Of a DNA stretch of 64,000 nucleotides, positions 12,363 through 30,856 are shown piece after piece (within the stretch, counting starts at the first letter, position 1; each line of letters starts with the position of its first letter). A program made the translations under genes and the position numbers. The DNA lies in NCBI RefSeq assembly GCF_937123705.1, contig NZ_CAKZKO010000037.1:124001-188000 (forward strand). The letters run 5' to 3'. The notes under the pieces are model-generated. The model had not been told where the DNA came from and did no database searches. It worked only from the letters and a program-made list of their open reading frames with translations. This DNA comes from an uncultured Paraglaciecola sp. GTDB taxonomy: Bacteria > Pseudomonadota > Gammaproteobacteria > Enterobacterales > Alteromonadaceae.

Positions 12363-15047
12363 ATGTACCCTAAAACTAAAATAGCCATCGTTATTGCATT
12401 AACGATTGCTGTGACGACCACTAGTTTTGCGCAACAAACTAATACTGTAGTGATTTCTGCTACAGAAAGCGCCCCAAAAACAGTGACAGCTGAATCTGAC
12501 GTGGAAATCATAGTCGTCACTGGTACCAGGAGCCAATTGCGAAGTGCTATAGACGAAAAGCGTGAGCTGCAACGAATTGCAGATTTAGTAACAGAAGATG
12601 ATTTAGGCAGCCTGCCAGACTTTAATGCAGCGGAAGCTTTAGGGCGAATTCCAGGTATTACCGTTGCAAATGATCAGGCTGAAGGGCGATTTGTCACTAT
12701 TCGTGGGTTGAATGCAAACTTTAATAATACCACTGTTGATGGTGCTTCTCTTTCTTCCACCGATATTGATGGGCGGAAAATTGAGATGGATGTTGTTCCT
12801 GCTTCAATGGCTGGCACTATACAGGTTATTAAATCACTAACCCCAGACATGGACGCCAATGCTGTGGGTGGTACGATTAATTTTGTTTCTCGCAGTCCTT
12901 TTGATTATGAAGATGGTTTTATGTCTTTTTCAGGCTCTGTTGGTAAATATCAAAATGACAACGGTTATAAGGGCAGCGGCCCAAGTGGCAATGGCGATTT
13001 AGTTTGGTCAAATATATTGGGTGATAATGAACAGTTTGGTCTAGTTGTATCTGCAAATTATTATCTCCGTCAATCTTATTTAGGCAGGATTGAACAAGGT
13101 GACGAGATATTATTTCATGGCGAAACAGGAACTGAATTAAGCGCTCGAAGCGACCGTGTTGATCCTTATGAAAGTGACATATATATCCCAGAAGAATGGA
13201 AAGCTTTAGACTATTACAATAGTCGAAAAAGATATGGGGGCAGCTTTAGATTTGAACATCGTCCGTCCGATGATGCCAAGACCTGGATCCGTGGTTTCTT
13301 CAATCAAGCGAACGATCAAGAAGCCCGGATGGAAACAAAAATGTGGAACCGTGAAAAAAATGCACGTATTACCTATGCAGATGCAAGCTCTGGCACCCTT
13401 GAAAATACTGAATGGTCCACTCAGCTTGGTGAGTTTGACTTTAAGCGCCAAACCTACGGTTTAAAAGCCTATGGTAAATATTCCCTTAAAGAAAAGTATA
13501 CTTTTGAGCCAGCAATAAATTATTCAGGTTCAAGTTACGAACAACCACAAGTTTGGGATAGGTTTGTTCAAAAATCAGCTGACTTCAAATTTGACACCCG
13601 TTCAAGGATCACTCAATGGACACCCACATCTGAAGACGCATTTAACGGTGATTTATTCGATTATCAAAAAAGAGAAATAAACATCGATGGATTAGATGAA
13701 GATATCATTTCTGTTTCGGCAGATTTAGGCTGGAATAACCAATCTTATGATATCGGATGGGGCTATAAAGTCGGGTTCAAGTACAGACAAAAAGATAAAG
13801 TTTATGATTATGAGCGCACTGAATATCGGTTTGCAGATGACTTAAACTTAAACAGCATAAACTGGTCTAGAAGTTGCCCCGATGAAATGCCAAGTTGTAA
13901 TAATGATTTATTTATTACCATGGATAGCAACTCAATCCATGACTTAGTTTCTGAGTACCTCTCTTCCGATGAAACAGATCTTCGTGAAAATGAAGATGAC
14001 GATAATAACCGAGACTATGATGCTTCGGAAAAAGTGACGTCCTTATATGGTTTAGTTGTTCATACCGGAGAAAAACATTTTTTTACCGCTGGCCTACGAT
14101 ATGAAGATACAGACTTCTCATCTACCGGAAAACGGGAAGACAAAGACCTAGGTGAATTTATCGTAAGCAGCAATGAAAACACTTATGACAACTTACTGGC
14201 GTCCGCTAATCTCAAATACGACATCAGTGACGAACTCGTATTTAGAACAGCCTTCTCTCAGTCAATATCTCGCCCTAGAATTTCATATCAAGCAGCAAGA
14301 GGAGAGAGACAGGATTTTAACGGCACCGAACTCACGCTTACACGGGGTAATCCAAACCTAAAACCAAGAGAAGCAAACAATTTTGATATAGGTTTAGAGT
14401 GGTATTTTGAAGAAGGGGGCTTACTCTCTAGTGCTCTTTTTTACAAAAATATTGATAACCAAATCTATCGTACCACGCGAGACGATGAGACCTTATATGA
14501 CCAAGATGGGGATGGAAACTTAGAACTTACCCCGACCAGCATACGTGAATATGTTAACGGTGAAGATGCCGATCTATATGGCCTTGAACTTGGTTATACC
14601 AAAGAGCTAGACAAAATCCTCCCAGGTCTTGGTTTTAATCTAAATGCCACGTTTTTAGGTAGTGATTATGAAGTTGAACTTGAAGATAGAGAATATAGAG
14701 AACCCGAAACATTTATTCAACAAGCCAACTTCACCGCCAATGCAGTGATTTATTATCAAAGGGGCCCCTTTGAGGCTCGTGTGGCGGCGAATCGAACGGG
14801 GTTAAAGTTGAATAATCTATACACCAGCAAAATCATAGACGCCTACCGAGATCAGTACGACGATGCACGTACACAAGTCGATGTGCAATTTCGTTATGAC
14901 GTAAATGATAGTGTTGGTTTATATGCCAATATCACCAATCTATTTGATAAAGAACAGTATGAATTGTTAGGTAGAGACCAAGAATTCACACGTTGGGAAT
15001 CAGATTTTGGCCGCGCTATCTTTATTGGTTTCTCCATCAAAAATTAG
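12363..15047 (+). CDS. TonB-dependent receptor (TonB-Xanth-Caul-like)
   Basis: VTGTRSQLRSAIDEKRELQRIADLVTEDDLGSLPDFNAAEALGRIPGITVANDQAEGRFVTIRGLNANFNNTTVDG; barrel terminating ...RAIFIGFSIKN. Confidence 0.92.
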   Translation: MYPKTKIAIVIALTIAVTTTSFAQQTNTVVISATESAPKTVTAESDVEIIVVTGTRSQLRSAIDEKRELQRIADLVTEDDLGSLPDFNAAEALGRIPGITVANDQAEGRFVTIRGLNANFNNTTVDGASLSSTDIDGRKIEMDVVPASMAGTIQVIKSLTPDMDANAVGGTINFVSRSPFDYEDGFMSFSGSVGKYQNDNGYKGSGPSGNGDLVWSNILGDNEQFGLVVSANYYLRQSYLGRIEQGDEILFHGETGTELSARSDRVDPYESDIYIPEEWKALDYYNSRKRYGGSFRFEHRPSDDAKTWIRGFFNQANDQEARMETKMWNREKNARITYADASSGTLENTEWSTQLGEFDFKRQTYGLKAYGKYSLKEKYTFEPAINYSGSSYEQPQVWDRFVQKSADFKFDTRSRITQWTPTSEDAFNGDLFDYQKREINIDGLDEDIISVSADLGWNNQSYDIGWGYKVGFKYRQKDKVYDYERTEYRFADDLNLNSINWSRSCPDEMPSCNNDLFITMDSNSIHDLVSEYLSSDETDLRENEDDDNNRDYDASEKVTSLYGLVVHTGEKHFFTAGLRYEDTDFSSTGKREDKDLGEFIVSSNENTYDNLLASANLKYDISDELVFRTAFSQSISRPRISYQAARGERQDFNGTELTLTRGNPNLKPREANNFDIGLEWYFEEGGLLSSALFYKNIDNQIYRTTRDDETLYDQDGDGNLELTPTSIREYVNGEDADLYGLELGYTKELDKILPGLGFNLNATFLGSDYEVELEDREYREPETFIQQANFTANAVIYYQRGPFEARVAANRTGLKLNNLYTSKIIDAYRDQYDDARTQVDVQFRYDVNDSVGLYANITNLFDKEQYELLGRDQEFTRWESDFGRAIFIGFSIKN

Positions 15048-15100
15048 TCAATTATAGGTCCAGGGATTAGAAGTAACTCCAATATTTATGGTAATTAAAA

Positions 15101-16057
15101 ATGAAAATACGTTTACTAGTAACCTTGATAGTCCTCTCGTTGAGTATTTGTAAGTCGATGGCTATCGCGTCAACAGAGCGTTTAAAAACAAAAAACAAAT
15201 CGTCGCAACACATAGTTTGCCGCAGTGATTTAGTAATGAATTCGATTAAAAGTAAAGGGACAAATCGTATTCTCGTGGCCGCTCATAGGGGAGCACACAA
15301 CACACAACCAGAAAATTCATTACCCTCAATTGATAAGGCAATAGATTTAGGGGTAGACATAATTGAGCTTGATGTAAGACTCAGCGCTGACGGCATACCG
15401 GTGCTAATGCATGATAAAAGTGTGAATAGAACAACCAATGGCACAGGCCTTATTTCCAATAAGTCCCTTGCAGAAATTAGGAAGTTAAGACTATTGTTTG
15501 ACGGAAAACCCACAGCACATCACGTCCCCACCCTAGCTGAAGTACTGGTTCAAGCGAAGGATAGAATAATTGTCAATATTGACATAAAAGCAGAAGACAT
15601 ATTAGCCATTTCAAAAGTGGTGGAAGAAGCGCAAGCTTTTAGCTACACCATGTTTTTTAATGATGACCTTGCGCTTCTATCAAAGCTAAGAACGATTCGA
15701 CCTGACACGGTTATTATGCCATTGGCCTCAAACGATAAAGAAGCACGGTTTATCGCTTCAAAGTTTGACATTGAAATCGTTCACCTTAAGGAGAATTATA
15801 TAAGCAGTGGCCTTTCAATATTTCTAGATGATAACAATAGTGCTGGCTGGGTAAATGCACTTGGAAAAATAGATTCATTTTTGAAAGATGGGAGTCTCAC
15901 TGCCAGCGATCATTTTATTGACGCTAGAGTGGATGTTATCCAAACAGATAGACCAGAAGAGCTTTTAGCGATTCTATCAAACAAGAGTTTACGCCCTAAT
16001 TATGCTGGTCTTAACAGAACTCAACCATGCGGGTTAGTTATTGCAAAAGAACCATAA
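15101..16057 (+). CDS. Glycerophosphodiester phosphodiesterase family protein, predicted secreted
   Basis: Signal peptide, then AAHRGAHNTQPENSLPSIDKAIDLGVDIIELDVRLSADGIPVLMHDKSVNRTTNGTG (GDPD signature). Confidence 0.88.
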   Translation: MKIRLLVTLIVLSLSICKSMAIASTERLKTKNKSSQHIVCRSDLVMNSIKSKGTNRILVAAHRGAHNTQPENSLPSIDKAIDLGVDIIELDVRLSADGIPVLMHDKSVNRTTNGTGLISNKSLAEIRKLRLLFDGKPTAHHVPTLAEVLVQAKDRIIVNIDIKAEDILAISKVVEEAQAFSYTMFFNDDLALLSKLRTIRPDTVIMPLASNDKEARFIASKFDIEIVHLKENYISSGLSIFLDDNNSAGWVNALGKIDSFLKDGSLTASDHFIDARVDVIQTDRPEELLAILSNKSLRPNYAGLNRTQPCGLVIAKEP

Positions 16058-16194
16058 AACGCCAGCCAAACTAGCAGTTAGCAAATTAATCAATCGACCT
16101 TAAACACGGCAATGCTCATTGAACACACCCACTTGATATGGGTTAAAGAATCAATGAATGCGCTTTATTTAAGGTTTGCACAGCGAACTCAGAT

Positions 16195-17523
16195 ATGTTT
16201 ACAACAATTTCAAATTTTTATAAAAGAAGTTCACCAAGTGCACATTCTTCTACTAATGTTCATCAAGACAACGAATTAAAAAGAAAAAAACTATCGATAT
16301 TTCTCGCCATCACAGTGGGTTATGGTTTTTATTACGTTTGTCGTCTTAGTTTCAACGTGGCTAAAAAATCCCTGGCTGATGAAGGAATATTTACGGTAAC
16401 AGAAATTGGTCTGATTGGATCGGCACTGTTTTTTGCTTATGCATTTGGGAAGCTTGCCAATGGCTTACTCGCTGATAGGGTCAATGTGCGTAAATTTATG
16501 ACCACTGGATTGTTAGTATCTGCTGTTGTAAACATAATTTTAGGTTCCACTACTGAATTTTGGTTCTTTGCAATATTGTGGGGGATAAATGGTTGGTTTC
16601 AATCATTTGGGGCACCTTCTAGTGTGGTATCTATTGTGCAATGGTTTGGGGGTAAGGAAAGAGGATCTATATGGGGAATGTGGGGGACAAGTCACAACAT
16701 AGGTGAAGCGATTACATTTATTTTAACGGCTTTTGTTGTTGGAAGTTTTGGTTGGATGTGGGGCTTTAGAACTGCGGGCATTTCTTGCCTAATTATATGC
16801 TTTTTTATGTGGAAATGTTTATATGAAAGACCAGAAGTTTATGGCTTACCTAAACCTGAAGAAAGCGCTTCCCCTAAGCAAAATATATCCATGGGAGCAA
16901 AACAATGGCAAGTATTCAAATCTCCAGCCATTTGGATTTTAGCGTTTTCCAGTTCCTTTTTCTATGTAACACGTTATGCAGTTAATAGTTGGGGGTTGTT
17001 CTTTTTAGAAGCAGAAAAAGGCTATAGCACGTTGGAGGCTGGGTCGATAATTTCTGTGAATGCCATTGCCGGTATTTTGGGTACGTTTTTTTCTGGGATC
17101 CTTTCTGATAAGTACTTTAAAGGGCGACGTAATTTTCCGGCGCTGATTTTTGGTTTTATCTATTTCCTTTCTATTAGCCTTTTTGTTTTAGGACCTGCTA
17201 ACTCAGTGATAGACACTTTTAGTATGGTTATGTTTGGCCTTTCTCTTGGTGTGCTCATCATTTATTTAGGAGGATTAATGGCGGTAGATGTTGCATCAAA
17301 AGAAACATCAGGAACCGCGCTTGGTATTGTAGGTGTAGCCAGTTATGTTGGAGCAGGGATCCAAGACATAGTTAGCGGTATCCTCATTGATGACAGCGTA
17401 ACCATGATTAAAGGCGAAGTTGTGTATAACTTTGAAACAGTTGGCTATTTTTGGATTGGTGCATCGTTGTTTTCGATGCTTCTTGCAACCTTAGTGTGGA
17501 ATGTTAAACCTCACCACAACTAA
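16195..17523 (+). CDS. MFS transporter, organophosphate:Pi antiporter type (GlpT/UhpT-like)
   Basis: GYGFYYVCRLSFNVAKKSLADEG..., NGWFQSFGAPSSVVSIVQWFGGKERGSIWGMWGTSHNIGEA; follows GDPD gene. Confidence 0.85.
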   Translation: MFTTISNFYKRSSPSAHSSTNVHQDNELKRKKLSIFLAITVGYGFYYVCRLSFNVAKKSLADEGIFTVTEIGLIGSALFFAYAFGKLANGLLADRVNVRKFMTTGLLVSAVVNIILGSTTEFWFFAILWGINGWFQSFGAPSSVVSIVQWFGGKERGSIWGMWGTSHNIGEAITFILTAFVVGSFGWMWGFRTAGISCLIICFFMWKCLYERPEVYGLPKPEESASPKQNISMGAKQWQVFKSPAIWILAFSSSFFYVTRYAVNSWGLFFLEAEKGYSTLEAGSIISVNAIAGILGTFFSGILSDKYFKGRRNFPALIFGFIYFLSISLFVLGPANSVIDTFSMVMFGLSLGVLIIYLGGLMAVDVASKETSGTALGIVGVASYVGAGIQDIVSGILIDDSVTMIKGEVVYNFETVGYFWIGASLFSMLLATLVWNVKPHHN

Positions 17524-17718: not shown

Positions 17719-18480
17719 CTACCCCAACTCCACCAAATAATGATAATGATCGCTGCGGCAACGGCTCACCCTATATTCGATCGCTTTATTATCCAATGAG
17801 TGTGTGACGCGGGTCACCTCTAGTAGTGGTTGTCCTGCTTGAATGGCCAACAATTGCGCATCATCTTTTGTTGCCAGCACAGCTTTAATACTGTCGCGGG
17901 TATCTCGCACTGTTAGGTTAAATTGAGTTTGATAAAAGTGGTACAGGGTGTGCGGTACTTCAGGTTGCTCTTCTAATTTTGCAAAGTATTTGTAAGGTAA
18001 AAAGATGGTTTCTGCCATACAAAACTCATTGTTCAAAATGCGCCTTCTACTGAGCACTATTACCTTTGATTTAGGTGTTAACTCTAAAGCCTTTGCCACT
18101 TGTTTGCTTGCCACTTGAGTGTTTACCGACATCAATTCGGCTTTGGGTAATTCGGGGGTTTTGCCATCGGCGATCAAAGGGAAAAAACGATACAAGCTGT
18201 GGTGACCTGTATGCTCAGAGACAAAGGTGCCTATTCCTTGCTTTCGATTTAGAATATTGGCATCGGTTAAGCTATTTAAGGCTTTACGCACCGTGCCTTG
18301 ACTCACATCCAGTTCGCTAGCTAATTGAAATTCACTTGGCAACATTTCACCTGGCTTCCAACGCTGCTCTACTATTAGTTGCGTAACATGCTCTTCAACT
18401 TGTTTATATAGCGGTTGTAGCGCAAGCCCTGGGCGGCTCAGTTTATTATCAAAACGGCTTTTATTCATAAATGTTAACAA
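17719..18480 (-). CDS. GntR family transcriptional regulator (UTRA/HutC subfamily)
   Basis: LYKQVEEHVTQLIVEQRWKPGEMLPSEFQLASELDVSQGTVRKALNSLTDANILNRKQGIGTFV plus UTRA domain. Confidence 0.9.
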   Translation of the reverse strand: MLTFMNKSRFDNKLSRPGLALQPLYKQVEEHVTQLIVEQRWKPGEMLPSEFQLASELDVSQGTVRKALNSLTDANILNRKQGIGTFVSEHTGHHSLYRFFPLIADGKTPELPKAELMSVNTQVASKQVAKALELTPKSKVIVLSRRRILNNEFCMAETIFLPYKYFAKLEEQPEVPHTLYHFYQTQFNLTVRDTRDSIKAVLATKDDAQLLAIQAGQPLLEVTRVTHSLDNKAIEYRVSRCRSDHYHYLVELG

Positions 18481-18714: not shown

Positions 18715-20841
18715 TTGTCAGTGCAATCCCCTTCGTTTGCTTCCACTGTTAATTTATCAGCGCCCGATTGGAATACAGTACCTCAAGTTACTGTGACGGG
18801 TGAGGGCTATAGCGCAGGGAAAACATCGGTCATATTGCCAACATCGGCGGGTTTGTTACAACTCAGTTTTCATAAAAGTGGACTGCGTATGCAAATAGCC
18901 GCTGATGCTTGCAGCGATTATGACATACTCACCCATCAGCCTGAGTCGCTGCCTTGCCAGTTAACCTCTTCAGAGCAAAGCAGCACTATTGTGTGTGGTG
19001 ACTATGCGTTAATCATCCAACATCAACCTTTTTCATTTAGCCTAAATTGTGCAGGCAAAACCATACAGCAAACCCCTAACGATGGGCACTTTGTTCGCCA
19101 ATACCGTATGCCCCCGCTGACTAAAACGGCGCAAGGTTGGTTATTTAGTTTACATTTAGGCGCCGAAGAGCCGGTATATGGACTAGGAGAAAAATGGTCG
19201 AGTTTAAATAAACGCGGCCAATTTATTCGCTCTTATAATCATGATGCCCTTGGGGTCAATGCCGAGATTTCCTATAAAAATACGCCTTTTGCATGGAGCC
19301 CATCGGGTTGGGGTGTTTTTGTGCATACGCCCGCCCCCGTCAGTCACGGCGTAGGGTATGCTCCTTGGTCACAGCGTGCTTATGGCTTATTGGTTGAAGA
19401 CGATGCCTTAGATATATTTATATTGCATGGTAAAAATGGCGGCGAAATCATCAATCAATATACCCAACTTACGGGCAAGGCACCGGTGCCACCAGTGTGG
19501 AGCTTAGGGGTCATTTTATCTAAAGCCTACTATCAAGATGTGCCCGAATTAATGGCTACCGCCAAAGCGGTGCGCGAACATGCTATGCCCTGTGATGTGA
19601 TCACCTTAGATGGCCGCGCATGGCAAGATACCGATACCCGTTTTGCCTTTGAGTGGGATCCTAAGCGTTTTGCGCATTTTCCGCCCAACCAAGTCATTGC
19701 CGATTTAAAAGCCATGAACTTTAAGGTGTGTATTTGGGAATACCCTTTAGTGTCGGTGCAAAATCCGCTGTTTGCCCAGATGGCTAAAAAAGGCTGGTTG
19801 CTAAAAGATAAACGTAGCGGCGAAGCTTACCGTTATCAATGGGATATGAGTGCCTTTGCCGAAGTGCTGACTCCTTTACCTGAGTCTGGCATAGTAGACT
19901 TTACCCACCCCGATGCCTTTAATTTTTGGCTCGAATCACACAAACCACTGTTTGATTTAGGGGTAGATATGATCAAGGCCGACTTTGGCGAGCAAGTAGA
20001 AGATGACAATATGCTGGCCCACAATGGTGACTCTGGCCATAGGTTGCACAATGTGTATAGCCTTTTATACAACCGCTGCGTGTATCAGGCCGCCGAAAAA
20101 TACAGTCAAAATGGCCCATTTTTATTTAGCCGCAGTGCATGGAGTGGCTCGCAGCGCTACCCCAGTCAGTGGGGCGGCGATCCTCAAGCCGATTGGGGAG
20201 GGTTAATTGGCAGCATTCGCGGTGCTTTGTCTTGGGGCATGTCTGGCGCTCCCTATTTTGCAACTGACGTAGGCGGGTTTTACAAAGACACCCGTGATTC
20301 AGAATTATTTGTGCGTTGGTCGCAAATGGCAGTTTTCTCAGCCCATATACGTTTGCATGGCATAGGTCAGCGCGAGCCGTGGAGCTATAGCCATGATGCC
20401 GAACAAGCGGTCAACCAAGCATTAAAACTGCGCTACCAGCTTATTCCTTATATTCAAACGGCTATGGAGCAAGCAAGCGAGACAGGCATGCCATTAATGC
20501 GGGCAATGGCCTTGGCCTTTCCTAATGACAGGCTGGCGCGAGGCTTTGAGATGCAATTTATGTTTGGTGACAATTTATTGGTAGTGCCTTGTACCCAACC
20601 AGGCGGTGAGGTGGAATTTTATTTGCCTGATGGCCAGTGGTTAAGATTTCCAGATCAGCAAATATTTAGCGGTGGCAAAGTGCATACCCTCACCTTAGCT
20701 TTAGAGGAAATGGCGGTATTTGTGCCTGCTGGGCAAAACATACCTATAGGCCCAGATGTGTTACATACCGAGCAATTAACACCCCCGGCCAGCGGCAAAC
20801 AAATCAAGCATTATTGGCCCGCACAAGATGTGGTTGTTTGA
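18715..20841 (+). CDS. Glycoside hydrolase family 31 (alpha-glucosidase/alpha-xylosidase/sulfoquinovosidase superfamily), no signal peptide
   Basis: CDVITLDGRAWQDTDTRFAFEWDPKRF, DMIKADFGEQVEDD (nucleophile Asp), FSRSAWSGSQRYPSQWGGDPQADW, GGFYKDTRDSELFVRW, RLHGIGQREPW. TTG start (GTG at 18721 also possible). Confidence 0.9.
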   Translation: MSVQSPSFASTVNLSAPDWNTVPQVTVTGEGYSAGKTSVILPTSAGLLQLSFHKSGLRMQIAADACSDYDILTHQPESLPCQLTSSEQSSTIVCGDYALIIQHQPFSFSLNCAGKTIQQTPNDGHFVRQYRMPPLTKTAQGWLFSLHLGAEEPVYGLGEKWSSLNKRGQFIRSYNHDALGVNAEISYKNTPFAWSPSGWGVFVHTPAPVSHGVGYAPWSQRAYGLLVEDDALDIFILHGKNGGEIINQYTQLTGKAPVPPVWSLGVILSKAYYQDVPELMATAKAVREHAMPCDVITLDGRAWQDTDTRFAFEWDPKRFAHFPPNQVIADLKAMNFKVCIWEYPLVSVQNPLFAQMAKKGWLLKDKRSGEAYRYQWDMSAFAEVLTPLPESGIVDFTHPDAFNFWLESHKPLFDLGVDMIKADFGEQVEDDNMLAHNGDSGHRLHNVYSLLYNRCVYQAAEKYSQNGPFLFSRSAWSGSQRYPSQWGGDPQADWGGLIGSIRGALSWGMSGAPYFATDVGGFYKDTRDSELFVRWSQMAVFSAHIRLHGIGQREPWSYSHDAEQAVNQALKLRYQLIPYIQTAMEQASETGMPLMRAMALAFPNDRLARGFEMQFMFGDNLLVVPCTQPGGEVEFYLPDGQWLRFPDQQIFSGGKVHTLTLALEEMAVFVPAGQNIPIGPDVLHTEQLTPPASGKQIKHYWPAQDVVV

Positions 20842-21383
20842 TGACTAAGTTGCAACAAACGCTATTTGCCCTTAACAAGCCCCTTGGCAAACTTAACTTT
20901 GCCGTTGCCAATACCGCTAAAAACTTCGCCGGAGGCTTACTCGCGGTGATGTTAATGATGATTCTGGCCCAAGTATTTTTTCGCTATGTACTCAACGACT
21001 CTTTGGCTTGGACCGAAGAACTTGCAAAATTTGCTATGGTTTGGATAGCGTGTTTAGTGGCCCCTTGGGCATACCGCGCGCACCTAAATGTGTCGATACA
21101 AATGTTTGCCGATGCCTTACCAGCACTGTTACGCAGAGCCACCGAAATTGTCATTACGCTCTTGGTGATACTTATTTGCGGCATATTTTTTATGCAAAGT
21201 CTGGCATTTTGGCAATCGGGATGGAGCATTAACGCGTCTTCTGTGCCTATCAAACTGGCGTACTTTTATAGTTGCGCCCCTTTCGCTTTTGGGTCGCTAT
21301 GTTTGGTGGGCTTTGAACGGCTAATCGAACAACTCTGTTTGCCCTTAGCCCATTGTGTTATTCCACCTCAGGACGCCCGTTAA
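20841..21383 (+). CDS. TRAP transporter small permease (DctQ-like)
   Basis: 4-TM protein, QVFFRYVLNDSLAWTEELAKFAMVWIACLVAPWAYRAHLNVSI; start moved to ATG 20841 (TGATG overlap with GH31 stop). Confidence 0.9.
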   Translation: MTKLQQTLFALNKPLGKLNFAVANTAKNFAGGLLAVMLMMILAQVFFRYVLNDSLAWTEELAKFAMVWIACLVAPWAYRAHLNVSIQMFADALPALLRRATEIVITLLVILICGIFFMQSLAFWQSGWSINASSVPIKLAYFYSCAPFAFGSLCLVGFERLIEQLCLPLAHCVIPPQDAR

Positions 21384-21384
21384 T

Positions 21385-22671
21385 ATGTCGTTAAGTTATT
21401 TCTGGGTCTTTATCTTATTATTAACCGCCGGTGCACCGGTAATTTTCGCCCTGTTAATTGGCCCAGGGGTTAGTTTGATTTTAGACGGCAAAGAAGTGTT
21501 TTTTTCGGCGCTGTTAAATAGATTGTACTCGGGCATGAACTCTTTTCCGCTGATGGCCGTGCCGTTTTTTATTTTGGCGGGTGAGTTGATGAATCAAGGG
21601 GGAATTACCCAATCTATCGTGCGATTTAGTCAAAGTTTAATAGGCCATTACCGCGGCGGATTAGCCCAAGTAAATATATTATCTTCGGTGTTATTTGCCG
21701 GTTTGTCTGGCTCGGCTGTGGCCGATACTTCAGCGCTGGGTAAAATGCTTATTCCGGCAATGGAGCAAAACGGTTACAGCAGACGCTTTGCTGCTGCGGT
21801 CACGGCTGCATCCTCAGTAATAGGCCCGATAATCCCTCCTTCTGGCATTATGATTTTATATGCCTTTATTATGAACGTGTCTGTGGCGGGCATGTTTTTA
21901 GCGGGCATTGTGCCGGGCATATTGATTTGTGCAGGTTTGATGTTAATGACCAGCCGCATCGCTAAAAAACGCAATTATCCTGTAGCCAATGCTAAAGCCT
22001 CCTGGCATGAACGCGGCAGCGCTCTGAAAAGTTCATTTTTACCGCTGCTTACGCCCGTCATATTATTAGGTGGTATAGTGTTAGGGGTATTTACGCCCAC
22101 CGAAGCAGCTGCCGTTGCGGCAGGTTATGCGCTGATTATTACCCTGTTTGTTACTCACACCCTTACATTGAATAAATTGCCTAACATATTAGTGAATGCA
22201 GCGGTGCAATCGGGCACTATTTTATTATTAGTTGGCTCGGCGGTCACCTTCGCTTGGATCATCACAGTCTCGGGCATGGCCGATACCCTCGCCTCAGAAA
22301 TCACCGGGATCACCGATAATGTGTTGTTGCTACTGCTGATCATCAACTTGTTTTTATTTGCTATCGGCATGTTTTTAGATGCGGGACCCGCTATCTTAAT
22401 TTTGGGCCCAGTGCTTGCGCCGATTTTTATCGCACTCGGTATCGACCCCTTACATTTTGCCGTGATCATGTGTGTTAACTTAACCGTTGGGCTTGCCACG
22501 CCACCTATGGGGTTAGTGTTATTTGTTGCGGCTGCGGTATCAGGTGAAAAAACCGAAAATATCGCCTTTGAAATGTTGCCTTTTTTAGCAGTAGAAGCCT
22601 TGGTGATATTTTTGATCACCTACTTCCCTGCCCTAACCATGACTTTGCCTAGATATTTTGGGTTCGCTTAA
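21385..22671 (+). CDS. TRAP transporter large permease (DctM-like)
   Basis: NRLYSGMNSFPLMAVPFFILAGELMNQGGI, SVLFAGLSGSAVADTSALGKMLIPAMEQNGYSRRFAAAVTAASSVIGPIIPPS; start moved to 21385. Confidence 0.93.
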   Translation: MSLSYFWVFILLLTAGAPVIFALLIGPGVSLILDGKEVFFSALLNRLYSGMNSFPLMAVPFFILAGELMNQGGITQSIVRFSQSLIGHYRGGLAQVNILSSVLFAGLSGSAVADTSALGKMLIPAMEQNGYSRRFAAAVTAASSVIGPIIPPSGIMILYAFIMNVSVAGMFLAGIVPGILICAGLMLMTSRIAKKRNYPVANAKASWHERGSALKSSFLPLLTPVILLGGIVLGVFTPTEAAAVAAGYALIITLFVTHTLTLNKLPNILVNAAVQSGTILLLVGSAVTFAWIITVSGMADTLASEITGITDNVLLLLLIINLFLFAIGMFLDAGPAILILGPVLAPIFIALGIDPLHFAVIMCVNLTVGLATPPMGLVLFVAAAVSGEKTENIAFEMLPFLAVEALVIFLITYFPALTMTLPRYFGFA

Positions 22672-22672
22672 T

Positions 22673-23716
22673 ATGACCATAAAACGCCTCATTTTACTGA
22701 TTATTTATGGACTGATTGCCGTGGGCTGCTTAGTGGGCATTTTTCGCGCCAGCGTGACCCAAGCAGAATTTACTATTAAGGCTGCAATTCAAGCCTCGAC
22801 TCAAGACGAAGATTACGTAGGATTATTGGCTTTTAAAGAATATGTCGAAAAACACAGCAACGGCCGGGTACAAGTGCAGTTGTATGCGTCGGGGCAATTT
22901 TGCGGCAGCGTACCCGAGTGTATCGGCAGTTTACAGTCAGGGGTGTTAGAAATGTTTCCCAGCACCGCAGGCGGCACCGGTAACTTTTTCGCTCCTGCTC
23001 AAGTGTTGGATTTACCTTACGTATTTACCAGTGACGCCCAAGCCGAGTGTGTATTAGATGGGCCAATTTTAACAAAAATGCGCGACACTGTGCTGGGCAA
23101 TGGCTTAAATATACGTTTAATTGGCGTATCCAACACAGGTGGTTGGCGTAACTTTGCCACCACCCAAAAAGCAATCCACAGCCCTGAAGACTTAATAGGT
23201 CAAAAAATTCGCACCACCCCTGCCGAAATTCAACAAGAATTAGTCAAACAACTCGGTGCCAACGCCACGCCTATTTCTTGGGCAGAACTCTACACAGCAT
23301 TAGCAACAGGTGTGGTTGAGGGCAGCAAAAACGGCATTCAAGATATCATTGGCGCCAAACTTCAAGAGCACTTAAAATACATTATTCTCGATGGTCACTC
23401 TTATATGGCCACCCTCTGGTGGTTTTCTGAGCCAGTATGGAAAACCTTACCGGCAGATATTCAACAAATTGTACTTAAAGGCTTTGAAAAACAAAAAGCC
23501 GCCGCCAGTCATTTAGTGGCCACCCAAGAAAGTCATTCCTACACACTATTTGAACAAGCTGGCGGCACCATTTATCGCCCTTCTATGGCAGAAAAACAAG
23601 CCTTTAAAGATGCATCGGTTAATATGCGCCAGTGGTTTATCAATAATTTTGGCGAAGATTGGCTAGATTTATTGGAGTCGTCGGTTGAACAATGTAATAC
23701 CCATCTCCCATCATAA
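22673..23716 (+). CDS. TRAP transporter periplasmic substrate-binding protein (DctP-like)
   Basis: FTIKAAIQASTQDEDYVGLLAFKEYVEKHSNGRVQVQLYASGQF..., GVSNTGGWRNFATTQKAIHSPEDLIGQKIRTTPAEI; start moved to 22673. Confidence 0.92.
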   Translation: MTIKRLILLIIYGLIAVGCLVGIFRASVTQAEFTIKAAIQASTQDEDYVGLLAFKEYVEKHSNGRVQVQLYASGQFCGSVPECIGSLQSGVLEMFPSTAGGTGNFFAPAQVLDLPYVFTSDAQAECVLDGPILTKMRDTVLGNGLNIRLIGVSNTGGWRNFATTQKAIHSPEDLIGQKIRTTPAEIQQELVKQLGANATPISWAELYTALATGVVEGSKNGIQDIIGAKLQEHLKYIILDGHSYMATLWWFSEPVWKTLPADIQQIVLKGFEKQKAAASHLVATQESHSYTLFEQAGGTIYRPSMAEKQAFKDASVNMRQWFINNFGEDWLDLLESSVEQCNTHLPS

Positions 23717-23720
23717 ATGC

Positions 23721-23748
23721 CGCTTATACCATTCTAGAATGGTATAAG
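23721..23748. terminator. 28-bp perfect palindrome GCTTATACCATTCTAGAATGGTATAAGC after the TRAP operon
   Basis: Read directly; 5 nt after the DctP stop codon; no strong T tract. Confidence 0.5.
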
Positions 23749-23820
23749 CCCTAACCGTTAACAATTTAGCAACAAAATGATTGCATATTACTGAATGAGA
23801 GGGTAAATTTTCACCGTCTT

Positions 23821-23838
23821 CTGTCTTATATAAGACAG
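23821..23838. promoter_or_regulatory. Candidate GntR operator CTGTCTTATATAAGACAG upstream of TonB receptor gene
   Basis: 18-bp perfect palindrome; shares TCTTATATAAGA core with sites at 18598 and 30896. Confidence 0.7.
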
Positions 23839-23978
23839 GGAAAGTCAATCTTATAATAAAATTAGAATAATGATGGGTGTCAACATCCAATAACACACAA
23901 GCCATGGCCCTAGTCAGTTTATACATTCTTTCACGGGCTAAAAATAACCAGATCAAGAACACATCTTGGGAGAACACC

Positions 23979-26357
23979 ATGCAACTAAAACCCAGTCACT
24001 TACACACTAGCATTGCTCAGGCACTGGCCTTGTCGGCTTGTTTAACAATGGGCGCAACGGCTCATGGACAAGAAGCCCAAAGTGACGAGCAACAAGGTTT
24101 GATGGAAAAAATCACGGTCACCGCGCAAAAGCGTGTTGAAAACCTAAATGAAGTACCTGTTGCCGTATCGGTATTGCGAGAAGATCAAATCAACTCGGCT
24201 TTTTCAGCCAATATAGAAGGCCTGCAAGCATTAGTGCCTTCTGTTAGTTTTAGAAAAGGTAATACAAACCGTAACTCAGCCATCACCATTCGTGGTGTAG
24301 GGACTATTTCATTCAGTGTTGCTGCTGAACCTAGTGTATCAACTGTTGTTGATGGCGTGGTGTTAGGCCGTTCTGGTCAAGCTTTCGTAGACTTATACGA
24401 CCTAGAGCGGGTTGAAGTGTTGCGTGGCCCACAAGGGACACTTTTTGGTAAAAATGCCTCGGCTGGTGTGGTGAATATCACCACTAAACGCCCTTCTGAT
24501 GAGTTTGAAGGAAGCTTTGAAGCTACCTTATTTCAAGACAACGAATACCGCTTAAAAACCAGTGTTTCTGGCCCGCTAAACGATAACGTCAGTGGTGGCT
24601 TAACCGTATTGAAATCTCAATTTGATGGTTACATCAATAATGTTTATAACAATGAAACCGTTAGTGGCTACGATAAAGAAGGCGTTCGCGCTATGCTGGA
24701 TATCGAAGCGTCAGACGATACCGATATCTTGTTTATTTTCGAGAACATGGACTCAAATGACAGTTGTTGTGCTGATTTAGAATTAACACCGAGTGGTCGC
24801 CATGATTCCGAATCATCACCCAATAGCAGCGGCATAGGTGATTTAGATCTTAGCCAAAGACAAATTGATCATGACTTTGAAACCCGCACCTTAGATGAAA
24901 CCACAGCGTTTTCGATACAAGTAGATAAAGAGCTAGGGGATCATCAATTAACATCCATTACCGCCTACCGCAGTTGGAAAAACACTGAGTTCCGTGAAGG
25001 AGACTTTACTTCCACAGCCGGTGATTTACCTATGCCGGTTTTTGGTGTGCCATTTCAGTTGCATGACATAGGTAATCAGGAGTGGGATCAAATATCTCAA
25101 GAACTTAGGATCGCTTCTCCAACTGGTGAAGCCTTTGACTACCAAGCCGGTTTTTTCTGGTGGAATCAAAGCTCAGAGCGTAACTTCACTCGTGATGCCA
25201 GTTGCCAAAATAACGGCGAGCAACTCAATGCAGCCATTGGCAACTATATGACAGACGTACTGGGTGTAGCCGATCCATCCGATGCTGACATACAACAATA
25301 TATTAGCGACGAAGGCATAAGATGTAATTCAAATGATATTGTCAGCGCCACAGCGTACATGGAAACCGAATTTGATAACTGGGCATTATTTGCCGATGGT
25401 AAATACCATATTAGTGACGACTTTAGACTATTGTTTGGCCTGCGTTACACCAACGATGAAGTGAGTTATTCTCACAATCGCATCAACAACGATCAATACA
25501 GCCGTACTGGGGTGGGAGTTCGAGGATTTAACACTGATTACAGTGGCTCAACAGATGAGTCCAATACCTCGGCTAAGTTTGGCGCGCAGTTTGATATCAA
25601 CGACGACAGTATGGTGTACGCGACTTACTCACAAGGCTACAAAGGCCCAGCATTCAACGTATTTTACAATATGGCAGATAACGATACTTTGCCCATTGGT
25701 GCCGAAACCTCTGATGCCTATGAGCTGGGTTATAAGTATGCCAGCCGTGATTTGATATTTAACGCTGCAGTATTTCGCACCGAAATTGATGGTTTTCAAG
25801 CCAACAACCCTGAATTGTTAGACGGCGTATTTATTACTCGATTAACCAACGCTGGTTCAATTATCACCCAAGGCGCAGAGCTTGACTTTATGTGGCAAGC
25901 CACAGAAGATTTCACGCTGACAGGCGGTTTATCTACAGTCACAGCGGAAGTTGATCAGTTTCTTTGCCCAGTAGGTTTAGATACCTGTGACGGCAGCTCG
26001 GGAGACGACCTACCCTTTTCACCTGACTTAAAATACTCAGTAACAGGTGAATATGTGTGGGATGTAGATGATATGCAAATTTATCTAAACGGCGCCTATG
26101 TGTACACAGCTGAAATATTTGCTGGGGCACCAGGCGCAACCGAAGCCACCAACCCAGAAGCACTATTGCCAGAATATGGCATATTTAACGCAAGCCTTGC
26201 CTTCTCATTCAGCGATGACGATTACCGTGTGTCACTTATTGGTAAAAATTTAACCGATGAGAAGTTTGTGACCACTTACAGCGGTGATAATTTCCGTTAT
26301 CAAATCCCTAGAGACGCAAGCCGCTACTTTGGTGTGCAATTACGGGCTAAGTTTTAA
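23979..26357 (+). CDS. TonB-dependent receptor
   Basis: Start moved to 23979 (MQLKPSHLHTSIAQALALSACLTMGATAHGQ signal peptide); plug MEKITVTAQKRVENLNEVPVAVSVLREDQI, ERVEVLRGPQGTLFGKNASAGVVNITTKRPSDEF; barrel end SRYFGVQLRAKF. Confidence 0.92.
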   Translation: MQLKPSHLHTSIAQALALSACLTMGATAHGQEAQSDEQQGLMEKITVTAQKRVENLNEVPVAVSVLREDQINSAFSANIEGLQALVPSVSFRKGNTNRNSAITIRGVGTISFSVAAEPSVSTVVDGVVLGRSGQAFVDLYDLERVEVLRGPQGTLFGKNASAGVVNITTKRPSDEFEGSFEATLFQDNEYRLKTSVSGPLNDNVSGGLTVLKSQFDGYINNVYNNETVSGYDKEGVRAMLDIEASDDTDILFIFENMDSNDSCCADLELTPSGRHDSESSPNSSGIGDLDLSQRQIDHDFETRTLDETTAFSIQVDKELGDHQLTSITAYRSWKNTEFREGDFTSTAGDLPMPVFGVPFQLHDIGNQEWDQISQELRIASPTGEAFDYQAGFFWWNQSSERNFTRDASCQNNGEQLNAAIGNYMTDVLGVADPSDADIQQYISDEGIRCNSNDIVSATAYMETEFDNWALFADGKYHISDDFRLLFGLRYTNDEVSYSHNRINNDQYSRTGVGVRGFNTDYSGSTDESNTSAKFGAQFDINDDSMVYATYSQGYKGPAFNVFYNMADNDTLPIGAETSDAYELGYKYASRDLIFNAAVFRTEIDGFQANNPELLDGVFITRLTNAGSIITQGAELDFMWQATEDFTLTGGLSTVTAEVDQFLCPVGLDTCDGSSGDDLPFSPDLKYSVTGEYVWDVDDMQIYLNGAYVYTAEIFAGAPGATEATNPEALLPEYGIFNASLAFSFSDDDYRVSLIGKNLTDEKFVTTYSGDNFRYQIPRDASRYFGVQLRAKF

Positions 26358-26374
26358 GACTTAACGTAAAAAGT

Positions 26375-26412
26375 AGCCCTCAACTTTTGATCAAGTTGGG
26401 GGCTTTTTTTTA
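26375..26412 (+). terminator. Rho-independent terminator
   Basis: AGCCCTCAACTT-ttgatc-AAGTTGGGGGCT followed by TTTTTTTTA. Confidence 0.85.
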
Positions 26413-26489
26413 CCTAAATATCGCCCCTCTGCTCTGGTTATACCAAACAACATAAACGAAGTACCCACTTGGTAAAACTTAACTATGAG

Positions 26490-27740
26490 TTAAACGCTTT
26501 TAAAATGCCGTTTATGCCAACTAATTGTGATAGGTACCGATAAATTCAACATAAAGGCCACCAACATCAAAGTATAAAATGCTTCAACAGACATGATGTG
26601 ATGCTGCACATAAGCAATGTCCAAAACCACAAAGGCCAGCTCTGCCCTACCCAACATACCAAAACCAATCATCCAACTGGATGCCCAGTCGAAATGTCCA
26701 GTGTAACGGGCCGCAATAGCAGCAGAAAGCACTTGGCCTATAAACAATCCAACAAATAACATCAAGGCCTCGGGTAACACCGACAAAAAGGTATCTAAAT
26801 CAAACAAAAGTTTACTGCCTAACGCCACAAAGAAGACCGGCCCCACCCATGAAAATGCTACATTATCGATAATTTCTCGGGCTTGCTGATAATAGTCCTT
26901 GTCCTGCTCTTTATGGAAATCAAAATACTCTCGGTGAATAATCAACCCCGCCATGTAGGCCCCAACAGCTGGATGAAAACCAAATTCATGGGCCAAGAGT
27001 CCAACTAGTACAGCAATCAATAACAAGGCTAGAACGGTATATTCGCCTTTGCCCATGGCTAATACTTACCGTAAATTGAGTTTGCCTAGCACAGGGATTT
27101 TTTGAGCCATGCCTTGGCTTGCCGGAAACAGCCAGCCCCCCATAAGTGTCACAATGGCAAAAAATGCCACTGCTTTTCCTAAAATGAGTAAAATGCCATC
27201 CATAGAAAGCTGTGCTTCACCTGTTGCAATAGGCACTAAAATAGCCACCAAAGCCAAAGACGCAATATCATCCAATACGGCTGAGGTCATGATACCCGTT
27301 GCAGCCGGCGTATTGCTTAGTCCTTCGCTTTTAAGAGAAACCATAGTGAGCGACACCGCTGTGGCAGTCATGGCCAAAGCACAAAATAGCGAGGTATTAG
27401 GATCGTCCCAAAAAATGCTCGCCATGCTGTAACCAATTACAAAGGGTGTAATAGCACCAAATAAAGCTATCCCCCAACTACGCTTGATCCCTTGCAAAAA
27501 ATTCGAAGTATCTTCTTCGAATCCAAGAGCAAACATGATGACAATAATCCCAAGCTCTGCGAAATCAATGATAAATATCGGCAAAACCTCTGGTAAAAAA
27601 CCTAGGTTAACAAACAAAGTGCCACAAAATAGATACCAAAGAACCGGTGTTAAACGGGTTTTGTGTGCCAAGTAGGAGGCAAGAAAGACAGTGGTCCAAA
27701 TCAAGGCCAAAACGGCAATATCATGCATGTTGATCTCCAT
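26490..27740 (-). pseudogene. CPA2 family cation/proton antiporter (Kef-like membrane domain) interrupted by an in-frame TAA
   Basis: ORFs 27740..27066 and 27056..26490 are in the same frame: ...VLGKLNLR-TAA-VLA-MGKGEYTVLALLL...; together they form one full-length antiporter. Confidence 0.75.
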
Positions 27741-27870
27741 AGACTAGAGATTAAGCATAACGCCGTAGCCAAGTATTGCATTGATTCTGATCAGCCCTAA
27801 GGCTATTAGGCTTGCTGTGAGTGAAAGCATTTAAAAATAAACACAGCAAACAGTGGCTAAGCCTTGATAA

Positions 27871-28848
27871 TTAAATGTACGGCAAACTCAGCAATATTAA
27901 GCCCGCTATCCACAGTGTTTCTAATACTAGTAATAAAACGGGTTTTAGCCCCACTTCTAGCAGTTTACCTAAGTTCGATTTCATACCAATAGCAGCGATA
28001 GAAATCACTAAAGCAAAACGGGATATATCGGTGGCACCTTGAGTTAATACGTCGGGCAAATCTACTAAGCTGTTAATGGTCATTAACACTACAAAGGCAA
28101 TTAAAAATGCCGGAATGCCAGGCGGTTTCGCATCAGAGTTTTTGTCAAAGTTCATCCTCAGTACTAATAAGATACACACTACTACTGGCATTAAAAAGGC
28201 GACTCTGACTAATTTTGTGACTGTGGCTAAATCGCCGGTTTGTTCTGATACCGAATACCCAGCGCCAACTACTTGGGCTACATCGTGGATAGTGCCGCCC
28301 AAGAAAATACTGGTGTGAGTGGGACTAAGATTGAGGAGTTCTGCTGCTATTGGGTAAAGCACCATAGCCACAGTAGATAACCCAGTAACACCCACTATTG
28401 TCAGTAATGTGTCTCGGTCCTTTTCTTTACTCTCGGGTAATACTGCGGCAATGGCCATAGCAGCAGATGCCCCGCAAATACCTACCGCACCACCTGTTAA
28501 TATGCCAAAGCGTTTTTGTAGACCAAAGGCTTTAGCTAACACTATACCTAGGCCGATTGTGCTGGCAATCGCCACCACCAACAACAGCGCAGTTTGCCAA
28601 CCTAGCGCGGCTAAGTCACCAAACGCAATACGTAAACCTAACAACCCCACACCTATGCGTAATATATGCTTGGCGGTAAACTCAATGCCTTCTTGGCAAG
28701 TTGTTCCTTCATATAAAAATGATAGGGCGATGCCTAACAATAAGGCAAATAACATGGCAGGTGCGCCATAATGTTCGCTTAAAAACAGGGCCGCTAAGCC
28801 CACAATAACTGACACTGAAATACCTGGGAGCTTAGTTTTTATTTGCAA
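27871..28848 (-). CDS. YeiH/UPF0324 family putative sulfate/sulfite exporter
   Basis: EHYGAPAMLFALLLGIALSFLYE, LRIGVGLLGLRIAFGDLAALGW, GGAVGICGASAAMAIAAVLP, LGGTIHDVAQVVGAGYSVS motifs. Confidence 0.88.
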   Translation of the reverse strand: MQIKTKLPGISVSVIVGLAALFLSEHYGAPAMLFALLLGIALSFLYEGTTCQEGIEFTAKHILRIGVGLLGLRIAFGDLAALGWQTALLLVVAIASTIGLGIVLAKAFGLQKRFGILTGGAVGICGASAAMAIAAVLPESKEKDRDTLLTIVGVTGLSTVAMVLYPIAAELLNLSPTHTSIFLGGTIHDVAQVVGAGYSVSEQTGDLATVTKLVRVAFLMPVVVCILLVLRMNFDKNSDAKPPGIPAFLIAFVVLMTINSLVDLPDVLTQGATDISRFALVISIAAIGMKSNLGKLLEVGLKPVLLLVLETLWIAGLILLSLPYI

Positions 28849-28899
28849 AGTTTGTGCTCGCGTGATCTATTGTTTGCCATAAAAGAGGTTACCCTAGGC

Positions 28900-29883
28900 T
28901 TAGTCTATAGCTAATGCAACCAAGACTTGCCGTTTACGCTCACCTGAATAAGGGCGCCTGCCATGCATAGCCATATAATTGTCTACTAAGGCTACATCGC
29001 CGTCTTGCCAAGGTAAATCAAAGGTGTACTTTTCTGACAATCTAACGATTAGCTCTAAGCCGTCAATTGGAATAGCACAACCATCGCCAAAGGTAATGGC
29101 ACTAGAAGGGTTTTCCCGTACCCCTTTCCATCCCATAAATGCAGCAATGAGTTGGTTATAAAAGACTTTTTTATCATTTCCTAAGTCAATCACTGCCGGC
29201 AGTACTGGCGTAGTGGCTCGTAGACTACCATCAGACAGCCATTCCCAGCCGTAGCCAAGGTCAGCCAGTTTTTGTTCTGCTTGAGTTCCGTCTTCGACGC
29301 TGAGGGTACTTTTCCAGCTGCGCCCTTGACCTGAATCAGGGTTATCTTCGGCAGGCATCTGAGTGGTATATTTAAGCCCTTTAGTCACAAAATCTGCGGC
29401 AAGTGCCGGCATTTCTTTGGCTAAATCCTCAAATAACCAATCAGAACGACATAATGGTGTGGCCCCGCCTTGATCGGCGGCTCGTTTGCAAAAGAAAAAC
29501 AACTTGCTTGGCGAAATCGGAGTTTGTGCCATCTCATGATGCAGAAATATTTCCACCTCTTTAGGCGCTTCGTTAGCGGTAAACACCCTTTCGGTGAAAT
29601 TGATCCTCACCGCGTTAGACAAAGACTCTTTGTAAGTAAAGTTGGGATAGTCGAATGCATTTGAAAAGGCATCAAAGGTTTCGGCCGAATCCACAGGAAA
29701 ACCTCTAAATAAAATCGCCCCAGACTCGGCCAACTTCACTTCTAGTTCACTCAAGTTGGCTTTGATCCATGCTTTACTTTGTTGCAGCGTTACAAGCAAA
29801 CCGTCGTTTACCACAACAGTAGGAAAAACTGATCCTCCACAGTCCAACTGATGGGGCACATCTACATAGTTAATTGCTGACAT
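28900..29883 (-). CDS. TauD/TfdA family Fe(II)/2-oxoglutarate-dependent dioxygenase
   Basis: ILFRGFPVDSAETFDAF, HxE-type metal motif in FLHHEMAQTPISPSKLFFFC, distal NYMAMHGRRPYSGERKRQVLVAL; start moved to 29883 (MSAINYV). Confidence 0.87.
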   Translation of the reverse strand: MSAINYVDVPHQLDCGGSVFPTVVVNDGLLVTLQQSKAWIKANLSELEVKLAESGAILFRGFPVDSAETFDAFSNAFDYPNFTYKESLSNAVRINFTERVFTANEAPKEVEIFLHHEMAQTPISPSKLFFFCKRAADQGGATPLCRSDWLFEDLAKEMPALAADFVTKGLKYTTQMPAEDNPDSGQGRSWKSTLSVEDGTQAEQKLADLGYGWEWLSDGSLRATTPVLPAVIDLGNDKKVFYNQLIAAFMGWKGVRENPSSAITFGDGCAIPIDGLELIVRLSEKYTFDLPWQDGDVALVDNYMAMHGRRPYSGERKRQVLVALAID

Positions 29884-29896
29884 TGACTCATTTCCG

Positions 29897-30856
29897 TTAA
29901 TCGTAAATGGGATAGAAAGTATTAAAGGCCGCTTCGCAGAAATGACCAGGATCATTAAAACGCCTATTGCTATTTAGCGCAGCAATGCTCTGCATTTCTT
30001 CTTCTGTGAGTTCAAAATCGAAAATACTTAAATTCTCCACTAAACGCTCAGGGCGAGAGGTTTTAGGGATAATTGCATTGCCCCGCTGTACTCCCCAACG
30101 TAATACAACTTGTGCGGCAGTTTTACCTAGTCTTAACGCGGCTTGCTTAACCACAGCTTGTTGTAACACAGACTCTGCGGCGCCAGCCATATCCAGTTCC
30201 AAGTAGGATAAAGCCCCAAGAGGTGAGAAAGCAGTAACCTGTAAATTGTACTGTTTGGCTACACGCATTAAACGTTCTTGGGTTAAATAAGGGTGAGACT
30301 CCACTTGCAAAACAGAGGGTTTTACCCGAGCGTAAGCCATTAAATCATGCAATAAACCCGTGTTGTAATTACAAACGCCAATTTGTTTTGCCAGACCTTT
30401 ATCGTATTGAACTTCCATTGCCTGCCACGTTTCATATAAAGGTACAGGCGCTAATTCCATTTTACCGACAGCGGGATCGGTGATCCACTCGGGCGGGTAA
30501 CGATCGTCAAAATCCACAAAAGGTTGGGCGATAGGAAAATGAATCAAATACAAATCAAGATAATCTAGTTGCAAATCGGCCAAGGTTTTTTCTAATGCCA
30601 ACCCTACGTGCTCTTTAGCATGATAGGTATTCCACAACTTAGAGGTTATCCATAAATCTTCACGGCTACACAGGCCATCTGCGATAGCTCGCTTAATGCC
30701 TTCGCCTACTTGCACTTCGTTACCGTAATCACAAGCGCTGTCTAAGTGACGATACCCTGCCTTAATAGCGTTATACACTGCATCGGCACAGATATCCTGA
30801 GGTATTTTCCACAGACCAAAGCCGACTTTTGGCATTTCTTTATGATTATTAGGCAT
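29897..30856 (-). CDS. Aldo/keto reductase (resembles D-xylose reductase AKR2-type)
   Basis: MPKVGFGLWKIPQDICADAVYNAIKAGYRHLDSACDYGNEVQVGEGIKRAI, LQLDYLDLYLIHFPIA, QVVLRWGVQRGNAIIPKTSRPERLVENLSIFDFELTEEEM. Confidence 0.9.
   Translation of the reverse strand: MPNNHKEMPKVGFGLWKIPQDICADAVYNAIKAGYRHLDSACDYGNEVQVGEGIKRAIADGLCSREDLWITSKLWNTYHAKEHVGLALEKTLADLQLDYLDLYLIHFPIAQPFVDFDDRYPPEWITDPAVGKMELAPVPLYETWQAMEVQYDKGLAKQIGVCNYNTGLLHDLMAYARVKPSVLQVESHPYLTQERLMRVAKQYNLQVTAFSPLGALSYLELDMAGAAESVLQQAVVKQAALRLGKTAAQVVLRWGVQRGNAIIPKTSRPERLVENLSIFDFELTEEEMQSIAALNSNRRFNDPGHFCEAAFNTFYPIYD

Follow-up and report, generated by a model that had tools for sequence, protein, structure and literature searches.

A GH31 clade probably separate from YihQ as the proposed sulfoquinovosidase of sulfo-SDO gene clusters in marine Gammaproteobacteria

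Introduction

Sulfoquinovose (SQ), a sulfosugar of plants and algae, is produced at gigaton scale, and surveys identify the organisms that degrade it through YihQ or GH188. GH31 sulfoquinovosidases have been treated as one class, and the YihQ and GH188 classes have been proposed as a bioinformatic signature of SQ degradation (PMC10755693). In the sulfo-ASDO pathway of Marinobacterium aestuarii, SQ is broken down by the enzyme pair SqoD and SquF (Ye et al., 2023, per PMC12890257). The sulfo-dioxygenase (sulfo-SDO) pathway is characteristic of Oceanospirillaceae and Alteromonadaceae, and Vibrio splendidus and V. ulleungensis are listed as carriers on BLAST evidence (PMC13372026); both the pathway and its occurrence in Alteromonadaceae are already known.

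Here we describe a GH31 gene in a 64,000-nucleotide stretch of Paraglaciecola DNA (the window, meaning the whole stretch analyzed). A sequence-only reading of the window had left the substrate open between an unrecognised sulfoquinovosidase subgroup and another acidic alpha-glycoside. From sequence comparison and gene neighborhoods, we propose that the protein is a cytoplasmic retaining alpha-sulfoquinovosidase of a sulfo-SDO cluster, in a clade separate from YihQ (probability roughly 0.87).

Results

The GH31 reading frame runs uninterrupted for 708 amino acids, the opposite strand has no open frame there, and the TTG start codon follows a Shine-Dalgarno-like GAGGT about 5 nt upstream. All three Pfam domains (PF13802, PF01055 with E=6.6e-83, and PF21365), with a nucleophile (D423) and an acid/base (D489) that are invariant in 52 orthologues, place the protein in Glycoside hydrolase family 31; a signal peptide is not apparent. 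The 3' end of the gene overlaps dctQ, and the cluster comprises the following genes:

17719..18480, minus strand: GntR/HutC-family regulator, probable cluster repressor (NCBIfam GntR/HutC models)
18715..20841, plus strand: GH31 hydrolase from a new clade, proposed to be a sulfoquinovosidase (D423 nucleophile, D489 acid/base; clade-specific K270, R301, R309)
20814..21383, plus strand: TRAP small permease DctQ (Pfam DctQ)
21355..22671, plus strand: TRAP large permease DctM (TIGR00786, 410 bits)
22658..23716, plus strand: TRAP solute-binding protein DctP (Pfam DctP)
23877..26357, plus strand: TonB-dependent receptor, probable outer-membrane SQ glycoside uptake (Pfam)
27871..28848, minus strand: YeiH-family membrane protein, probable sulfite/sulfate exporter (PF03601, 224 bits; TIGR00698, 150 bits, below cut-off)
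28900..29883, minus strand: TauD-family Fe(II)/2-oxoglutarate dioxygenase, proposed SQ dioxygenase in the SqoD role (Pfam TauD)
29897..30856, minus strand: aldo-keto reductase (AKR), proposed 6-dehydroglucose reductase in the SquF role (Pfam, PDB)

The regulator gene is divergent from the GH31 gene, and its homologues, 58-75% identical, adjoin the GH31 or AKR gene in most Alteromonadaceae clusters. The dioxygenase, whose start was set at an internal ATG in line with its relatives, conserves the HxE...H iron ligands, and its gene is adjacent to that of the AKR (28900-30856), so that an Fe/2-oxoglutarate dioxygenase and an oxidoreductase are co-located as in sulfo-SDO clusters. In the PDB the AKR is closest to yeast-type xylose/aldose reductases (E ~1e-92 to 1e-87), which agrees with the likeness to D-xylose reductases seen in the sequence-only reading.

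Several other features of the region were observed. The cluster (18715-30856) has a G+C content of 44-47% vs 41-42% in both flanks, which is consistent with recent acquisition. Within it, the gene for a KefB-like cation/H+ antiporter (26490-27740, minus strand) is broken by a single in-frame stop after residue ~224, a site at which the frame is open in the Paraglaciecola relatives L024 and L025; the interruption is either a pseudogene or an assembly error. Just upstream (12363-17523) are a TonB receptor, a glycerophosphodiester phosphodiesterase-like protein, and a GlpT/UhpC-like transporter, which might use glycerophosphodiesters; conservation of the cluster does not extend to these genes, which were excluded from it.

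Gene neighborhoods were surveyed by a dioxygenase profile search, from which we kept the best 80 named loci (56 with full flanks); the closest named relatives were Paraglaciecola species. The AKR accompanies the dioxygenase in 73 of these best 80 loci, and 55 of the 80 have a homologue of the window's GH31 as their sugar hydrolase. These co-occurrences span Alteromonadaceae, Pseudoalteromonas, Colwellia, Cellvibrionales, Arenicella, and one Acidobacteriota MAG (L077), and some apparent absences of GH31 reflect the limits of the flanks (in G430, for example, it shares a contig with the AKR at a distance of about 19 kb). Among 395 sampled genomes of the order, GH31 is found in 7 (at 1e-150), all of them among the 11 with the dioxygenase, a co-occurrence with a hypergeometric chance of ~1e-12 by a hand calculation that ignores relatedness. 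Homologues of the TonB receptor (54-85% identical) are present in 35 of the 56 full-flank loci. An SSF symporter takes the place of the TRAP transporter in 46 loci and the two never occur together, so a transporter is always retained; the DctM proteins of Vibrio sulfo-SDO clusters are 50-51% identical to that of the window. For sulfite handling, relatives carry TauE (17 loci), a SorA-like sulfite dehydrogenase, a molybdoprotein (26 loci), or YeiH, the gene for which is immediately 3' of the dioxygenase gene in 35 of the 56 full-flank loci. The search found no SorA in the genome that the window comes from, where YeiH alone may handle sulfite.

Canonical YihQ, searched at E<=1e-90 with G083 as a positive control, was found in none of 60 Alteromonadaceae genomes. 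The source assembly (5.57 Mb, 228 contigs, estimated contamination 8.6%) also includes a 3.8 kb contig (G000:C93, locus L153) that opens, at 1-642, with the C-terminal portion of another GH31, this one YihQ-like, which is 42% identical to YihQ and keeps the equivalent of Y508. This fragment is followed by genes for an aldehyde dehydrogenase, an enolase-superfamily dehydratase, and the start of a flavin/NAD-binding oxidoreductase, and the contig may be contamination or part of another sugar pathway. Elsewhere, a 51% identical GH31 relative (L144, genome G439) adjoins TRAP and TonB genes.

At the active site, D423, E426, D489, and H548 are invariant across the 52 GH31 orthologues. The motif at residues 300-316, GRAWQDTDTRFAFEWDP, is invariant or nearly so in the same set and is therefore not a chance feature of one sequence. 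We take the SQ-binding residues of YihQ to be Q262, Q288, R301, W304, and Y508, all confirmed in the E. coli sequence; they align to K270, Q304, D307, F310, and F522 of the window protein, so that four of the five differ, although YihQ is longer near 301-310, which leaves the alignment uncertain there and makes the glutamine match at Q288 alignment-dependent. The C6-side residues of YicI, presumably F277, C307, and F308, are likewise replaced (Y272, G300, and A302), a YicI threonine has become K270, and R301 has been added. The C6-side invariants specific to the clade are K270, Y272, R301, T308, and R309; in the AF2 model, K270 is the final residue of strand E266-270 and R301 lies just after strand E295-298. 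L144, the most distant member, has arginine at 270 along with R301 and R309, so a basic residue at 270 is conserved even there. These observations make K270, R301, and R309 the best candidates for sulfonate binding.

By PDB search, NCBIfam models, best tree, and fold search, the protein is nearer to YicI than to YihQ, as the sequence-only reading had supposed. In a phmmer search of the PDB, which holds no member of the clade, YicI matched at E=6e-96 and YihQ at 8e-37; the NCBIfam models gave 425 bits for YicI (PRK10658, cut-off 606) and 203 for YihQ (PRK10426, cut-off 553), both below cut-off; and a profile from 44 orthologues scored YicI at 411 bits, 5F7C at 409, and YihQ at 177. The AF2 model (mean pLDDT 86, pTM 0.89) has YicI as its best fold match (TM ~0.8), and the top 50 matches include no YihQ chain. 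A tree of 50 GH31 sequences, which has long branches, recovers the clade with full support and groups it with YicI (SH-aLRT 99.9), giving no clear placement in a characterised subfamily; as judged by sequence, the protein belongs to a clade of its own. The sequence-only reading had also compared motifs around the -1 subsite: its YihQ motif was exact to the letter, and its YicI motif was right except for one letter (the E. coli sequence is CFWMKAFQWCDFEWDP). The likeness to YicI at this subsite more likely reflects ancestry than substrate.

This placement bears on how the clade arose. It could be a sulfoquinovosidase of common origin with YihQ that has diverged quickly, without separate evolution of SQ specificity; such a history would alter the evolutionary part of our interpretation and leave the function as proposed. 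An AU test retains the tree that unites the clade with YihQ (p=0.31), and Q304-D305, D493-W494, and R527 are shared only with YihQ, but the grouping of the clade with YicI in the best tree, the far lower sequence score of YihQ, and its absence from the top fold matches make this history unlikely. We lean instead, a little beyond even odds, towards a second origin of sulfoquinovosidase activity in GH31, from a YicI-like ancestor, in which K270, R301, and R309 came to form a new Lys/Arg pocket for the sulfonate, with this clade rather than YihQ as the usual gateway to the dioxygenase pathway in marine Gammaproteobacteria.

The substrate is indicated mainly by loci without this GH31, in which recognised SQ genes replace it or adjoin the dioxygenase/AKR pair. 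For example, in L022 orthologues of the pair adjoin a true YihQ (54% identical to that of E. coli; 981 bits vs the cut-off of 553), in V. splendidus (L103) they are beside YihS (69%, SQ isomerase), YihU (65%), aldose epimerase, TauE, and a class II aldolase, and in L020 and L021 YihV (51-52%) is also nearby. In L079 and L080, which have only the dioxygenase of the pair, its gene overlaps that of a homologue of the GH188 enzyme SqgA (E=2.5e-99 to 8QC3/8QC2). Across these loci the dioxygenase is 54-61% and the AKR 65-71% identical to that of the window, and L103 and L087 derive from the V. splendidus and V. ulleungensis listed as carriers (PMC13372026). The neighboring YihQ, SqgA, and YihS/YihU genes tie the pair to SQ, which does not support the view in the sequence-only reading that the substrate is unsettled and lends good support to the first of its two alternatives, an unrecognised sulfoquinovosidase subgroup.

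Two further observations concern these neighborhoods. In L079 (2100-5261) and L080, the genes for a luciferase-like monooxygenase, the SqgA homologue, and the SQ dioxygenase homologue overlap, bringing an SMO-like and an SDO-like enzyme together in one operon. In the Planctomycetota loci L099 and L100, the neighbor of the dioxygenase (56%) and AKR (55%) homologues is a Gfo/Idh/MocA protein that carries a Tat-like leader; considered as a GH188 candidate, this protein proved not to be SqgA-like, its best PDB matches being other dehydrogenases, and it possibly represents a different route for sulfosugar glycosides.

The second alternative of the sequence-only reading, another 6-sulfonated or acidic alpha-glycoside (a sulfofucoside, 6-sulfo-mannoside, or glucuronide) with the dioxygenase acting on that sugar, fares poorly. 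It would suit a pocket unlike that of YihQ, and genome G439 (96% complete) has its GH31 relative and no dioxygenase or AKR; but YihQ, SqgA, YihS, and YihU adjoin orthologous dioxygenases, and TauE and SorA point to sulfite release, which is not expected from a uronide, and we give this possibility very little weight. That the protein is a YicI-like alpha-xylosidase or an alpha-glucosidase placed in the cluster incidentally is hardly credible: YicI is its closest solved relative and shares D299, W341, K421, and F522 with it, and the AKR resembles xylose reductases, but the (near-)invariant C6 side departs from that of YicI, the score is below the YicI equivalog cut-off, the gene is co-inherited with the dioxygenase, and searches of the related clusters with E. 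coli XylA, XylB, XylF, XylR, and YicJ found no homologue of XylA, XylF, XylR, or YicJ. The lone XylB match there is 26% identical (L083), and the window's YicJ match (22%) is a GPH transporter (9423-10769) not conserved with the cluster, in keeping with the earlier view that a simple xyloside pathway does not fit.

Discussion

We infer the SQ activity of the GH31 protein entirely from gene context, and likewise the enzymatic steps, the sulfonate pocket, the direction of transport, and the regulation. In the proposed pathway, whose chemistry follows the description of sulfo-ASDO (PMC12890257), SQ glycosides such as sulfoquinovosyl glycerol would enter through the TonB receptor and then the TRAP transporter, and the GH31 enzyme would release SQ in the cytoplasm with D423 as nucleophile and D489 as acid/base. 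The sulfonate would be held by K270, which ends barrel strand 1, and by R301 and R309 in the strand-2 loop, in place of R301, W304, and Y508 of YihQ. The TauD-like enzyme would then cleave the C-S bond of SQ with Fe and 2-oxoglutarate, yielding sulfite and 6-dehydroglucose, which the AKR would reduce to glucose, while YeiH would export the sulfite and the GntR regulator would control the cluster. The four changed YihQ positions, the G439 genome, and the xylose-reductase-like AKR count against a sulfoquinovosidase.

Ma et al. 2025 may have described this GH31 clade; a review mentions that work in connection with GH188. If confirmed, the proposed pocket would be a second mode of sulfonate recognition within GH31. 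With a widespread clade whose nearest current model is that of alpha-xylosidase, many marine degraders of SQ glycosides would go unseen or be misnamed.

The window enzyme resembles YicI (E. coli, PDB 1WE5/1XSI) most closely in both fold and sequence (29% identity), and differs from it in the C6-side pocket (K270, Y272, G300-R301-A302, and R309) and in having no xylose genes nearby. With YihQ (E. coli, PDB 5AED/5OHT; Agrobacterium, 5OHS) it has in common the GH31 fold, the catalytic aspartate pair, the lack of a signal peptide, and the proposed release of SQ; unlike YihQ, to which it is 25% identical, it lies on a different branch of the best tree with most of the SQ-binding residues replaced. 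In L079 and L080, the place of the GH31 next to orthologous dioxygenases is taken by the NAD+-dependent GH188 sulfoquinovosidase SqgA (Gfo/Idh/MocA fold), whose fold and mechanism are unrelated to those of the window protein, which is a GH31 and not a GH188 enzyme. The proposed pathway as a whole is most like the sulfo-SDO (sulfo-ASDO) pathway of the gammaproteobacterium M. aestuarii, likened here by its description, with an Fe/2-oxoglutarate dioxygenase, an NAD(P)H reductase, and sulfite as output; the link to SqoD and SquF runs through V. splendidus and V. ulleungensis, carriers by BLAST (PMC13372026).
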